DNA of 64,000 nt from Victivallis vadensis. GTDB taxonomy: Bacteria > Verrucomicrobiota > Lentisphaeria > Victivallales > Victivallaceae. The translations under genes and the position numbers were made by a program. Under the pieces are notes generated by a model. The model ran no database searches, was not told where the DNA came from, and saw nothing but the letters and a program-made list of their open reading frames with translations. The stretch's first letter is position 1, and the number at the start of each line of letters is the position of its first letter. Of this stretch, positions 13,544 to 38,281 are shown in pieces. Location: the NCBI RefSeq assembly GCF_003096415.1, contig NZ_QEKH01000010.1:62001-126000 (forward strand), read 5' to 3'.

Positions 13544-14247
13544 AAAAACGGTATTTTACTCTTATTGAGCTGCTCGTGGTAATAGCGATCATCGCGATTT
13601 TAGCCGGGATGCTGTTGCCTGCGCTGAACCGGGCGCGGGAGAAGGGCAGGGCGATCTCCTGCGTCAACAACCTGAAGCAGTTCGGGCTGGCGAACGCTTT
13701 TTACAGTCAGGACAGCAATGTGTTTCCGCCGGTATGGTATCAACCGGCGGGAGCGACCTACCGCTGGGCGCGGCTGTTGATGCCGTATCTGGGCGGTGTC
13801 AGCTACGGCGATTCCAATGCGGCGGATTACATTAAAAACGTCAAATACTTCCGGTGTCCCGGCGATTCGCTCAAGCGCAATCAGGCGAATGTCGCGCCGT
13901 GCACCTATGCGCTGACCTACATGGTGCAGGCAACCGATCTGAGCAACATCACGCCCGGCGGCGGTGCGACCGGCGGAACCAATCCGAGCGTCGCATTCAG
14001 CCGGGTGGCCAGCCCGTCGGATACGATCATTCTGGCGGAGCGCCCCCGTCCCGACAACGATGTGAACAACGCGCTCGGCAGCGATCCCAGCCGGGTGGCG
14101 GGCGCGAACAACGTGCTGACTGAGGAGGTTCACAGCCAACGCAGCAATTACCTGATGGGAGACGGGCACGTCAGCTCTTACCGCTGGGGGGAAACCTATC
14201 TCGACAACGGCCGCATGTGGAAATTCAAGAAATGGGAAACAAGATGA
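13540..14247 (+). CDS. Prepilin-like (type II/IV pseudopilin) protein, module 1
   Basis: 235 residues. After MKKRY comes the class III signal [19 protein letters not shown] and the LLPALN...A.E continuation of the N-terminal pilin helix, with Glu at mature position 5. The residue before the cleavage site is Tyr rather than the usual Gly. The soluble part has CPGDS and ends with [15 protein letters not shown], the DGHV motif typical of the large prepilin-type family in Lentisphaerota and Planctomycetes. It overlaps the regulator before and the glycosidase after by ATGA junctions, so all three are translated together. It probably inserts in the inner membrane and may join a type II/IV-pilin-like fibre. 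Confidence 0.88.
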
Positions 14248-17200: not shown

Positions 17201-17357
17201 AGTTGAAATCCGCCTCCCCGCCGGCAGTTGGCTCCTGACCGACGTGTTCGACGGCAAACCTCTGGGAAGTTATACAGCTCAGGAGCTGTCCGGAGGAATC
17301 GAGCTCTCCGCAGACGCCGGCAAACTGAAAATGATCGAATTAAAACGGCGAAAATAG
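14244..17357 (+). CDS. Secreted GH42-like beta-galactosidase-family protein
   Basis: 1037 residues with a signal peptide (about 1-23). N-terminal beta-rich modules precede a GH42-like barrel with [39 protein letters not shown] beta-galactosidase trimerisation-like domain follows ([20 protein letters not shown], about 880-910). At the place where GH-A enzymes carry Asn-Glu (acid/base), this protein has GWNFSQG, Asn563-Phe564, while a Glu remains in [10 protein letters not shown]. It may therefore be inactive or use another residue. It is the third gene of a translationally coupled module; a substrate of beta-linked galactose or a related sugar is only a family guess. Confidence 0.7.
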
Positions 17358-17526
17358 CCCTTTCCGCCGCAAGCGGCGGGGAATCCGAGATTTCGCCTTC
17401 GGCGACCAGAGCACTTCGTTCCTGGACCCCGACCGACAAGGTGCCGGCGCCGTATACGAAATTGTTTTTCGCATTGCGAAAAACAATTTCGGAACTTTTA
17501 AAAGTCGCCCCAAGGGGCGAGGTGGG
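17358..17526. repeat. Hairpin-rich intergenic element with conserved box (inverted copy)
   Basis: A non-coding stretch between two convergent genes. It contains CCGCCGC-AA-GCGGCGG (17364-17379), a box at 17427-17458 with GACAAGGTGCCGGCGCCG, a perfect 16-bp stem (17457-17472 with 17476-17491, loop ATT) and TCGCCCC-AAG-GGGCGA near 17504-17520. The box is the reverse complement of the one in the repeats at 33165 and 33496. The neighbouring hairpin has the same design but different sequence. Confidence 0.75.
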
Positions 17527-22882: not shown

Positions 22883-23605
22883 TCAGTATGTACCGGGCAT
22901 GACCGGACTGCCGCTGCTCTGCCATGCGCCGGCTGTGGCGTTGTATGCGCCGACGACTCCGGGCGCCGCCGGCAATTCTTCGGGATAGAACGCTTCCCAT
23001 TTGTCGTAGATATCCTGACGGCTGCGGGTTTCCACATGGCCGTCGACGAAGGAGACGTTCGCTTTTCCGGCATGGCGGATTTCGAGGTCATGGGCGACGA
23101 GAAATGATGGCGACATCCACCCCTCCGCCGTCAGCATCACACTCGACGCGCTTTTGACGCGGGGGGCCGGAACTCCATAGTAGAAGAATGCGGCGGAAAA
23201 CGGATAATCATTCTGGATCCGCGAGCAGAGCGGATAATCCGCCCGCGCTCCGGACAGCGGGCAGGTGAAGGTTTTCGGGGAATGGACATACGCGTTGACC
23301 AGCGGTTGGAGTCCGCCGCCCCAATCATTGCGCCAGGACCACTGTGAAGCGTCTTCGGTAAATCCGGCAAGCTCCCACAAATAGATATTGACCATATTCG
23401 CACCGCCCTTGATTCCGGGGTAGAGGCCCTGATTGTCGTCGCTGTACATGTTCATTCCGAGCGCGACCTGTTTCTGGTTTCCGGCGCAGGTGATCGTGCG
23501 GGCCCGGTCGCGCGCTCCGTTCAGCGCCGGCAGCAGCATCGCGGCCAGAATCGCTATAATGGCTATCACAACGAGCAGCTCAATTAATGTAAATCTTTTC
23601 AACAT
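22883..23605 (-). CDS. Prepilin-like (pseudopilin) protein, module 2
   Basis: 240 residues, AAGGAG before the ATG. MLKR is followed by [19 protein letters not shown] and [12 protein letters not shown]; the residue before the predicted cleavage point is Arg, not Gly. The globular domain contains CPLSGAR and ends near [17 protein letters not shown], the DGHV motif. It is the first gene of the minus-strand operon continuing into glycosidase, MBL protein, GH130 phosphorylase and transporter, and is divergent from the regulator at 23872. The role is probably the same as in the other three modules. Confidence 0.88.
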
Positions 23606-23676
23606 AATCAGTTGGCTCCTTTTGCATCATTTTGTGTTTCTGACCTTCTCTGGCCGGGAGTCGGTCGTCAGTGTTT

Positions 23677-28827: not shown

Positions 28828-29586
28828 TCAGTAACTTTTGCCGAGCGGCAGATTCGCCATTTTCGTATCGGGATTATGGCCTTTGGAAAAATAACCGAAG
28901 TCCATGCGCCCCGATTCGGAGTGACCGTCGTAAAACAGCACGTTCCCCTTATCCATGTGATTCAGCCCGAAGCTGTAGTGGCGGGCGTGGCCGAGCTGGT
29001 AGTAGTTTTCAAAGGAATCATGAGTGGTCACAAACTGCGACGGACCGTATTTCTCCTTCTGGTCGCTGTTGTCGGGATTCTCGGTTACAACCGAAAAACG
29101 GCCTCCGGCGTATTTCCAGAACGCATCGTCATTGGAGCCGCCCTTGCGGTAGCCGCGTTTCCCGTAGGTACGTTCCCGGTGGTCCGCCACAAAGGGAAAA
29201 GCGGAGGGGCAGATTCCGACATGTTTTTTGCCCTTCGTCCATTGCGGCAGGTAACCGAGGTTCCCCATGCTGGAAACCCAATATTTGTTTTCGGTTCCGT
29301 CCGGGTTGCTCACTGCGAGCTTCGGCCCGTACAGCCAGCCGTCATAATCATTCATATACTGGGCGTCGGCAAGGCCGATCTGCTTGAGCTGGCTGGTGCA
29401 GGTCACCTGTCTGGCCCGGTCCCGCGCCTTGTTCAGCGCCGGCAGCAGCATTGAGGCGAGAATCGCAATGATCGCTATTACCACGAGCAGCTCAATGAGA
29501 GTGAAATATCCGTACATAATGCCGGGTATGGTATGGTAAGGGCGGGCGAGCTTTTCATGTTGCATTTGGTTTCGCTCATTACACAT
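28828..29586 (-). CDS. Prepilin-like (pseudopilin) protein, module 3
   Basis: 252 residues from the ATG at 29586, which has a strong ribosome-binding site (ACGGAGGT) just upstream. The leader is unusually long (about 27 residues, [19 protein letters not shown] onwards) before [19 protein letters not shown] and [12 protein letters not shown]. The residue before the cleavage point is Tyr, with Gly one further upstream. The C-terminal motif is [16 protein letters not shown], with His-Ser in place of His-Val. It precedes the GH42-like gene by 13 bases. A later in-frame ATG (MYGYFTLIE) would give a short leader but lacks the Shine-Dalgarno match. Confidence 0.85.
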
Positions 29587-30186
29587 TTTTACCTCCGTTT
29601 TAAATCGGCTATACTTTTTTTCAAAGGCTGTTACAGGCAACAATTTTAAAGTCGTGCGCCCTGCTGTCCGATGTCAACTTTGGAGTGCGGAGATTCATCT
29701 CCGCTTTCCAATCGCGCGTGACCCTGTAATAATACTTAAGTTTAATTCGCCTTTCCGTACCATTACCGGCCACAAACTGGGTGCCAGTCATTTGCGGATG
29801 GCTCCGGAGGGCCACTCGCCCTCCGGACCTCCCCGCTCGCCTCGGAACTCCCGTTGACTTGCGAAGCACTTCCATTCGCGGGCGGCCCTAGCGGGCCTTA
29901 CTTGTCCGCCTGCGGCGGCCAACTCCTCATCGTTCGCTGCGCTCACTACGCCGGAGGGGCTTCGCTCACTACGTTCGGCTTCGTCACTATCGTTCCTCGT
30001 TACTTGCTGCCGCAAGTAATGCCCTCACATTCGTTCGCGGCGCTGACCGCGCTTGTTGTGCGCCGCGGAATGGTCATGGAGGCCAACCAATGCTTGCCTG
30101 TACCAGCAGCCGCACGCCCCCCGTAGGGGCATTGGCGTGCGTACCCGGCAGCGGCACCTTGCCGCCCGCCTGTATTAAGCTCCCCA
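29587..30186. repeat. Non-coding, hairpin-dense island
   Basis: 600 bases between the prepilin-like gene and the LacI regulator with no credible gene. It carries many perfect stems: GCGGAGA/TCTCCGC (about 29686-29703), CCGGAGGG/CCCTCCGG (about 29804-29826), TTACTTGC/GCAAGTAA (30000-30019), CGCGGCGC/GCGCCGCG (30036-30067), and a nested GCACGCC...GGCGTGC around 30112-30140. GGCACCTTGCCG near 30153 is shared with the 33-kb repeats. The first 60 bases must hold the module 3 promoter; I see no convincing -35/-10 pair. Confidence 0.65.
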
Positions 30187-33164: not shown

Positions 33165-33291
33165 ATAAACTCATAGACAACAACCCCGGTTTTGAATTTT
33201 TACTGCGTAAAAATTCAAAACCGTATCCGGCGCCGGCACCTTGCCGGTCGGGGGGGCGGGGGTGAAGCGCCCCGGGCCGCCGGAGGCAAAG
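33165..33291 (+). repeat. 127-bp direct repeat, copy A
   Basis: Nearly identical to 33496-33623. The order is: ATAAACTCATAGACAA leader, a perfect hairpin with a 16-bp stem (33187-33202 with 33208-33223, loop CTGCG), the box CCGGCGCCGGCACCTTGCCGG, a G-run, then GAAGCGCCCCGGGCCGCCGGAGGCAAAG. An open frame across it is present in both copies only because they are repeats; there is no ribosome-binding site or family match. Confidence 0.85.
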
Positions 33292-33304
33292 CCCCGGAGG
33301 GGAA

Positions 33305-33472
33305 GCCTGCCGTTTTAAAGGCAGGCGGATCTGCCTGCCCTGACGGGCGGCAGACCTTGTGCGCTACGCGGCCTGATTTTCAATCAGGCTCCTGTAGCTG
33401 GGCGCTGTAGCGCACAAGTGTCTCCGACGGCCAACGCTTTCGCCGTTGGATCACGACCGGCAACGTGCCGGT
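33305..33472. other. Chain of nested stem-loops between the direct repeats
   Basis: In order: GCCTGCC/GGCAGGC (33305-33326); a nested structure with a perfect 12-bp outer stem, CTTGTGCGCTAC (33356-33367) and GTAGCGCACAAG (33407-33418), enclosing GCCTGATT-TTC-AATCAGGC (33371-33389); CCAACG/CGTTGG (about 33431-33449); and ACCGGCA-ACG-TGCCGGT (about 33455-33472). It reads as a structured RNA or a DNA cruciform rather than a gene. Confidence 0.6.
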
Positions 33473-33495
33473 GCGGAGTACCACCGGTAGACCAA

Positions 33496-33623
33496 ATAAA
33501 CTCATAGACAATAACCCCGGTTTTGAATTTTTACTGCGTAAAAATTCAAAACCGTATCCGGCGCCGGCACCTTGCCGGTCGGGGGTTCCGGGGGCGAAGC
33601 GCCCCGGGCCGCCGGAGGCAAAG
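33496..33623 (+). repeat. 128-bp direct repeat, copy B
   Basis: Second copy of the 33165 repeat, 331 bases later. Hairpin stem and CCGGCGCCGGCACCTTGCCGG box are identical; it differs in the G-run (GGGGGTTCCGGGGGCG) and single bases. Its right end abuts the pgk terminator. Confidence 0.85.
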
Positions 33624-33647
33624 AAAAACCCCTCCGGATGGAGGGGG
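33624..33647 (-). terminator. Rho-independent terminator of pgk
   Basis: On the minus strand a GC-rich 7-bp stem (33640-33646 with 33629-33635, four-base loop) is followed by five T residues, 16 bases after the pgk stop. Confidence 0.85.
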
Positions 33648-33661
33648 TGAGCGCGTGACAA

Positions 33662-34915
33662 TTACTTGTCGGAGAGAGCGACCACGCCGGGGAGGGCCTT
33701 GCCTTCGAGGTATTCGAGGGAAGCGCCGCCGCCGGTGGAGATGTGGCTCATCTTGTCCGCAAGGCCGGACTTGTTGACCGCGGAGACGCTGTCGCCGCCG
33801 CCGATGATCGAAATGCCGCCGTTGGCCTTGACTTCGGCAACCGCCGCGCAGACGCCGAAAGTGCCTTTGGAGAACGCGGGCATTTCAAAGCAGCCCATCG
33901 GACCGTTCCAGACGACGGTCTTGGCGCCCTTGATCGCATTCGCGTAGAGTTCGGTGGTCTTGGGACCGATATCGAGCGCCATCCAGCCGGCCGGGATATC
34001 GTCGCCGGTGATCTGGGTGTTCGCGTCGGCGGCAAACTTGTCGGCGGCGACGTTGTCGACCGGGAGCAGGAAGTTCACGCCGAGTTCCTTGGCCTTGGCG
34101 ATCATTTCCTTGGCATATTCGAGCTGGTCGAGTTCGCACAGCGAGTTGCCGACGTCGTGGCCCTGCGCCTTCAGGAAAGTGTAGGCCATGCCGCCGCCGA
34201 TGATCAGGGTGTTGACCTTGGTCAGCAGGTTCTTGACGACCGCGAGCTTGTCGGAAACCTTGGCGCCGCCGAGGATCGCGACGAACGGGCGAACCGGGTT
34301 TTCGACCGCGCTGCCGAGGTATTCAATCTCCTTTTCCATCAGGAAACCGGCGACCGAAACCGGCACATACTTGGTGATCACGGCGGTCGAAGCGTGGGCG
34401 CGGTGAGCGGTGCCGAACGCGTCGTTGCAGTAGATGTCGCCGTAGGAAGCCAGCTTCTTCGCCAGTTCCTGCTGCTTTTCCTTGAGCTCAGCCTTCTTCG
34501 CCTTGAACTCCTCGTCGGACTGGCCTTCCTTCTGCTTGAGCTTGCCCTGTTCTTCCTTGTAGAAGCGGGTGTTTTCGAGCATCAGCACATCGCCCGGCTT
34601 CATCGCGGCGACTTCCTTGTCGGCGTTGGCGCAGTCGGCGGCGAACGCGACCGGCTTGCCGAGCATCTTCGACAGGTATTCGGCAACCGGTTTCAGGCTG
34701 AAATCGGCTTCATAGCCCTTTTCGGCGGGACGGCCGAGGTGGCTCATCAGCACGAGGCTGCCGCCGTTGTCGAGCACATATTTGATCGAGGGCAGCGCGC
34801 CCTTGATGCGGGTGTCGTCTTTGATCACGCCTTCTTTGATCGGAACGTTGAAATCGACGCGCATCACAACGCGCTTGCCTTTGAGGTCGACATCACGCAG
34901 AGTTTTCTTGTTCAT
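33662..34915 (-). CDS. pgk: Phosphoglycerate kinase
   Basis: 417 residues from ATG 34915; upstream in-frame codons run through the gap-pgk terminator and are rejected. It transfers phosphate between 1,3-bisphosphoglycerate and ADP in glycolysis. Signatures: [13 protein letters not shown] at the N terminus, [10 protein letters not shown], the substrate-binding arginine segment [14 protein letters not shown], and the C-terminal GGGDSVSAV and [10 protein letters not shown] highly charged insertion ([17 protein letters not shown], about 123-150) makes it some 20 residues longer than typical bacterial PGK. It follows gap on the same strand, with an intrinsic terminator between them. Confidence 0.97.
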
Positions 34916-37588: not shown

Positions 37589-38281
37589 ATGAAAACAGAA
37601 AAAAGATATTTTACACTGATTGAACTTCTTGTAGTAATAGCGATCATCGCCATCTTGGCCGGCATGTTGTTGCCGTCACTGAACAAGGCGCGCCTCAGCG
37701 CCCGAACCACGAGCTGCATTTCACAGATAAAGCAAAATGGTACCGCTTTAAATATCTATTCGGATGATTATAAAGGACTACCTCCAACCTATTACACTTT
37801 AGGCGGAGCGCTAGGGAATGACCCTACTTGGTGTGCCACCGATAATAGTTCATACGCAGGTTTGATGCTGGTTGCAAGTTTAAACTATTTGGGAAATGTT
37901 GATATTGAAGCAGCGAAAAATACCAAAATCAGCCCTAAAATTCTCAATTGTCCGGTCTGTAACCCTGTCAAGCCGCAAACTGACGGAAATGCCTGGAGGC
38001 GGATCAGCTATATCTATGGACGGGACTCCTACAATGACAATGGATTCTTTACTCCCAAGTTGAAACCCTATCCTCAATTAACCCGGGAAGTACTCATTTA
38101 CTGTTTCGGCAGCAATACTGTTATGGATTATGGGAAACAGGACGTTCACGGTGGTTATACCGTTCTTTATAGGGCAAATGGATCAGCAGGAAAATTATCA
38201 AAAAATGCGATTTGGAATGGTCAGAAATCTTATCCGTGGAATCACAAGACCGAATTACTGCCACACGTTGATTCACTCTGA
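37589..38281 (+). CDS. Prepilin-like (pseudopilin) protein, module 4
   Basis: 230 residues. MKTEKRY is followed by [19 protein letters not shown] and [12 protein letters not shown]; Tyr precedes the cleavage point. The globular part has CPVCNP and a Tyr-rich middle. Unlike the other three, it has no DGHV near the end: it finishes [16 protein letters not shown]. Past about 37730 the DNA is clearly poorer in GC than its neighbours, so this part may be recently acquired or recombined. It lies 14 bases before the GH5-esterase gene. Confidence 0.83.

Follow-up and report, generated by a model that had tools for sequence, protein, structure and literature searches.

Near 17.4 kb in the window (the whole stretch of 64,000 nucleotides of Victivallis vadensis DNA analyzed here), two genes converge, and between their ends lies a perfect hairpin behind a short box that recurs near 33 kb in front of other hairpins. 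The initial annotation took this locus for a third, inverted copy of the 33-kb repeats, in which the hairpin had kept its pairing while changing its sequence, and saw in this the mark of a functional structure. The locus thus raises the questions of what kind of element the hairpin belongs to, whether its pairing is indeed maintained, and whether the fold works in RNA or in DNA.

Copies at 17.4 kb and 33 kb

Both the shared box and the position between convergent genes, which end at 17357 (+) and 17527 (-), were borne out. The box ACAAGGTGCCGGCGCCG differs by one mismatch from the boxes at 33 kb, and is followed by TATA and the perfect hairpin, referred to here as hairpin D. The extent given earlier (17427-17491) misses the front of the element, as the module begins at about 17387 with two further hairpins (A and B) before the box. 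The features in the window are as follows:

17364..17379 (+): extra front hairpin CCGCCG-CAAG-CGGCGG, adjoining the stop codon at 17355-17357 (sequence)
17387..17457 (+): conserved module of hairpins A and B and box (covariance model R1; cmsearch 83.3 bits, E 1.5e-19, the score of a training member, as this copy is among the 15 used for building the model)
17393..17405 (+): hairpin A, TCGCC-TTC-GGCGA (sequence; covariation, helix 1)
17406..17425 (+): hairpin B, CCAGAGCACTTCGTTCCTGG, imperfect in this copy (sequence; covariation, helix 2)
17433..17451 (+): stem C, CCGACA/TGCCGG (17433-17438 with 17442-17447), loop AGG at 17439-17441, the GG of which pairs with CC at 17450-17451 (covariation, helices 3 and 4)
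17436-17452 (+): box
17457..17491 (+): hairpin D, perfect 16-bp stem, loop ATT (scan; covariation among eight copies of the 17.4-kb type)
17494..17519 (+): trailing palindromes ACTTTTAAAAGT and CGCCCC-AA-GGGGCG (sequence; similar in copy L193)
33223..33295 (-): second 33-kb module (model match), hairpin D at 33187-33223
33412..33481 (+): inverted partner module, loop pairing in the CG/CG version (model match)
33554..33627 (-): first 33-kb module, A, B and C (model match), hairpin D at 33518-33554
33228-33244 and 33559-33575 (-): the 33-kb boxes (box search)

The extra front hairpin is probably part of the 17.4-kb module as well, and similar ones are found in two other home-genome copies of this type (L193 and L200). 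The earlier reading of a box followed by a perfect hairpin of equal length holds for the 16-bp stem at 17.4 kb, but the 33-kb stems have 17 bp and the loop GCA (or, alternatively, 16 bp and a 5-nt loop). Behind hairpin D of the window copy stands GGAACTTTTAAAAG without a T-run, so that this copy lacks the form of an intrinsic terminator. The first 33-kb module follows the gene at 33662-34915, at a distance of 34 nt from its stop. Perfect hairpins of at least 12 bp with loops of 3-8 nt number only three in the 64-kb window (the 17.4-kb one and the two at 33 kb), as opposed to 0.05 expected per Markov-shuffled window, and a chance hairpin was rejected on this count.

A family of folded modules

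The 17.4-kb hairpin belongs, as one copy among many, to a family of folded DNA repeats that had not been filed before; the family is present in many related bacteria with up to hundreds of copies per genome, usually right behind genes. The count of three copies was therefore wrong in scale: near-matches to a 16-mer number 340 in the genome and 35 for the reversed-pattern control, and the 5.2-Mb genome has 211 instances of the 22-nt box core GACCGGCAAGGTGCCGGYGCCG with at most two mismatches, compared to none in the reversed control, i.e., some 200 boxes. Within the bacterial family, covariance model R1, built from 15 copies, gave matches in 43 of 78 genomes, representing 14 of 19 genera, with the counts in the copy-richest genomes to be read as "at least". 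In the 388 phylum genomes sampled, the model reached E 1e-4 (its E-values being rough) only within the same order (family f1 and three further ones, f2, f4, and f7), and no genome outside this order matched. Copies within one genome are related, and copy counts are therefore not counts of independent events. The matches are not limited to the three copies of the window but number hundreds, from dozens of genomes. No Rfam family convincingly matched the module. That the repeat in the window is due to chance, or is strictly local without a wider family, is, in our judgment, next to impossible: after the searches nothing is left in its favor, exact 22-mer matches in contigs being scattered single ones in unrelated bacteria, and against it stand the copy counts, on which it was rejected, the spread over genomes and over the order, and the covariation described below.

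Many copies are solo, including the one at 17.4 kb, and inverted pairs are frequent, spanning about 700 bp (655-961) in type 1 and less in type 2, G014, and G031; mosaic types also occur. In G011, G028, G061, and G007, numerous matches to the model fall about 200 bases or less from the end of a contig, which suggests that assemblies are probably broken by these repeats and that true copy numbers are higher. Besides this family, another mosaic repeat, about 500-1000 bp long and likewise in high copy number, was observed, with a box variant CGGCAAGGTGCCGCTGCCG and many hairpins of the GTAGTGAGCGAAGC type (window 29676-30176; L088 3026-4057; L101 17713-18464); at the one locus tested it had no Rfam match.

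Alignment of the copies placed hairpin A, hairpin B, the box, and hairpin D in that order. In full, the module runs from hairpin A through hairpin B and the 6-bp stem C to the variable, usually perfect hairpin D. The loop of stem C reads aXY; the dinucleotide that follows the stem at a distance of two bases is complementary to XY, giving a predicted pseudoknot-like pairing of 2 bp only. It takes the forms AGG..NGCC, ACG..NGCG, AGC..NGGC, and ATG..NGCA (GG/CC, CG/CG, GC/GC, and UG/CA respectively). Two G062 copies carry one mismatch in this pairing, and seven copies scored as unpaired have a 4-nt loop and probably pair once shifted by one.

Among 94 distinct copies from relatives, aligned by fitting to the model (which favors A, B, and C and leaves the loop pairing outside), compensatory changes altered 17 of 21 pairs on both sides. 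Doubly changed cells numbered 250, as opposed to 66 after shuffling (reached in 0 of 500 shuffles), and 96.9% of cells were paired, compared to 80.9% in shuffled and 23.6-51.9% in slid controls. The innermost pair of stem C, for example, is AU in 33 copies, UA in 27, GC in 26, and CG in 3. Covariation is thus strong among many matches, and is present even within the box, which had been treated as constant sequence. Across the family, folds have thus been kept while letters changed.

The hairpins for which this was initially proposed, however, are not a valid example. The 17.4-kb and 33-kb stems are of different subfamilies, between which hairpin D cannot be aligned, so their comparison amounts to a module swap and not to base-by-base covariation, which was rejected for this pair of stems since the bases are not homologous one by one. 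The claim holds instead for hairpins A and B, the box, and stem D among copies of the 17.4-kb type. This subfamily comprises eight copies (four in the home genome, two in G062, and one each in G031 and G014), in which 4 of the 16 pairs of stem D show double changes, e.g., U-A to C-G and A-U to G-C. Doubly changed cells were 7 compared to 2.3 when shuffled (0 of 500), while the count of doubly changed pairs alone is weaker (reached in 26 of 500 shuffles) over these few, related copies. In type 1, identical stems carry loops that are reverse complements of each other (TTC/GAA and TTT/AAA), which fits inversion at the DNA level. Separately, the inverted arms of the ~700-bp type-1 element enclose its center in one orientation or the other, with the arms unchanged (L009, L018, L025, and L013), suggesting that the center is inverted by recombination.

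Genomic position and the nature of the fold

Based on codon-trained gene calls made in this analysis on 864 kb of the home genome (800 kb plus the window), a same-strand stop codon is found within 40 nt of 22 of the 43 strong modules, which start -7 to +34 nt from it, and only one module has a start codon within 40 nt. In other genomes, 93 copies were all clear of called genes. Modules can point either way relative to gene ends; in genus g15 and in G005, the gene next to the copy is on the opposite strand, and its stop codon is faced by the D end instead of the A end. The element was absent behind orthologs of two genes flanking one type-1 copy at 11 of 11 congener loci, and the model had no match at the loci of the window's transporter in G005 and G006; because gene order differs, these are comparisons of position and not of exact empty sites. 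Positional conservation was rejected given this absence. A regulon was likewise rejected, the genes upstream of the 17.4-type copies being unrelated by eye (glycosidase-, esterase-, AraC-, and Maf-like).

A separate observation concerns a module subtype that lies antisense before prepilin-like leaders (FTLIELLVV) at 12 distinct loci in about five genomes of two genera (G000 C1:216446, C1:221258, C1:277982, C3:27809, C3:48281, C3:56992, C3:141489, and C7:57618; L034, L041, L042, and L048). In 13 of 13 cases the pilin frame is open through the module for 90-323 codons, and several frames begin from a second, upstream partial leader, so that these modules are apparent in-frame insertions. The window itself has four prepilin-like leaders (13544-13697, 23464-23608, 29376-29520, and 37599-37734) sharing 71-81% DNA identity over about 95-145 bp.

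An RNA acting from one strand would be expected to tolerate G-U pairs far more than A-C mismatches. Over the 18 unambiguous pairs of A, B, C, and the loop pairing, about 1,530 cells comprised 1482 Watson-Crick, 9 G-T, and 16 A-C combinations, part of the last being alignment slips from the 4-nt loops. Similarly, hairpin D (copies mostly from the home genome) had 659 Watson-Crick, 3 G-T, and 12 A-C cells, several of the A-C cells representing one inherited change. As G-T is no commoner than A-C, the constraint looks strand-neutral, which favors a fold needed in DNA or a mutation process that perfects palindromes. The functional structure proposed at the outset is supported in part, as far as maintained pairing goes; in the sense of an RNA it is not favored, given these mismatches, the two orientations, and the absence behind orthologs.

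The main rival is a structured RNA at mRNA 3' ends, which would serve as a terminator, a barrier to RNases, or a stabilizing element, would have spread through recombination, and would have its fold, including D, at work in the transcript. The start of home-genome copies just around same-strand stops and the strong covariation with its pseudoknot-like pairing speak for such an RNA, and in several genomes hairpin D looks like an intrinsic terminator, with a T-run behind it in G007, G073, and some others; in genus g15, T-runs come immediately after the box. It is weakened by the strand-neutral mismatches and by the reversed orientation to the gene in g15 and G005; moreover, the window copy has no T-run after D, the genes upstream of 17.4-type copies are unrelated, and copies are not retained with orthologous genes, leaving this explanation unlikely. 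Alternatively, the perfect but changing D stems might be a product of mutation, in which template switching at quasi-palindromes copies one arm into the other and yields apparent compensation without selection. The near-perfection of D (about 25 mismatched cells in all, strand-neutral) and the type-1 loops in both orientations on one stem speak for it, but it leaves unexplained the 2-bp loop-to-flank pairing, the compensatory changes in the short hairpins A and B across genera, and the conserved A-B-C-D order, and we regard it as distinctly unlikely.

Spread of the element and comparison with known systems

With modest confidence, we consider the 17.4-kb feature probably a solo copy of a non-autonomous dispersed (REPIN/MITE-like) structured DNA element with folded ends. 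One strand of each end module would fold into A, B, the 6-bp C with its loop-to-flank pairing, and the variable D; this fold would be needed in single-stranded DNA, where a putative recombinase or transposase may recognize it and spread the element, as at REP/REPIN and IS200/IS605 ends. The position behind stop codons would then reflect target choice or tolerance, and use as a transcription barrier, if any, would be later and secondary. A more specific version, speculative and unlikely, is that a non-Y1 enzyme recognizes the folded single-stranded ends, with the loop/flank dinucleotide pairing serving as a short guide code that changed between lineages while the pairing was kept.

Regarding candidate mobilizers, no Y1 transposase (PF01797) was found in the copy-rich genomes G000, G002, G014, G031, and G097, the home genome included, and Y1 does not track copy number across the family, so a RAYT/REP system was rejected. 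An IS91-type Y2 enzyme, absent in the home genome and nearly all relatives, was rejected too. No autonomous copy with the same ends was seen in 864 kb of the home genome, nor was any transposition event; the transposases searched by name covered two families. Around 14 type-1 copies, the direct-repeat score was not above that of shuffled flanks (p 0.39), nor were flanking inverted repeats above shuffles; target duplication or insertion into palindrome loops thus gave no signal, with one exception. Around the copy at G000:C11:54926-55628 lies a near-perfect inverted repeat of 13 nt (CACTCCGACATCG / CGATGCCGGAGTG), not seen in the 13 others, and this copy sits as if inserted into a terminator loop between convergent genes.

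The change of letters under lasting pairing (that of loop to flank included), repeated over hundreds of copies from dozens of genomes, amounts to a natural experiment, and an element that no known transposase accounts for could reveal a mobilizer outside the REP/RAYT paradigm. Further, the family explains contig-end repeats in draft assemblies of the order, covariance model R1 is a ready annotation tool for them, and the open-reading-frame subtype before prepilin leaders ties the element to protein evolution.

Among known systems, integron attC sites likewise keep structure while sequence varies and lie just behind stop codons, but six 17.4-type copies have no GTTRRRY / RYYYAAC core and the copies are scattered instead of arrayed; attC was rejected for lack of the core sites. 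MITEs, including Correia-type elements, ERIC, and Rickettsia palindromic elements, are short, non-autonomous, intergenic inverted-repeat elements, and the Rickettsia palindromic elements also lie inside open reading frames, as does one subtype here. The ~700-bp type-1 elements resemble MITEs in having terminal inverted repeats without a coding gene. However, the family conserves structure and not terminal sequence, and no partner transposase was found among the two families searched by name. The 14 copies show no target-site duplication, so a classic MITE is not supported. Acido-Lenti-1 RNA (RF01687) is a structured candidate from Acidobacteria and Lentisphaerae (PMC2864571); its best match in the genome scored 18.6 bits, compared to a gathering cut-off of 37, and no known Rfam family accounts for the module.

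REP/REPIN sequences are high-copy extragenic palindromes, often in inverted doublets with a spacer and in species-specific versions (PMC3116915), and in REP/RAYT systems the ends are bound as folded single-stranded DNA, with short complementarity picking the cleavage sites (PMC8266576). The repeats described here are also high-copy, extragenic, and palindromic, and form inverted doublets with a spacer (the type-1 and type-2 pairs) besides the many solo copies. Their modules, however, are far larger, with three or four hairpins plus the loop-to-flank pairing; the GTAG foot is absent in six 17.4-type copies (CGTC occurs in three, at no common place), and the home and other copy-rich genomes have no RAYT gene. 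Lacking both the foot and the Y1 gene, the family is not a member of REP/REPIN-RAYT, which is nonetheless its nearest working analogy.
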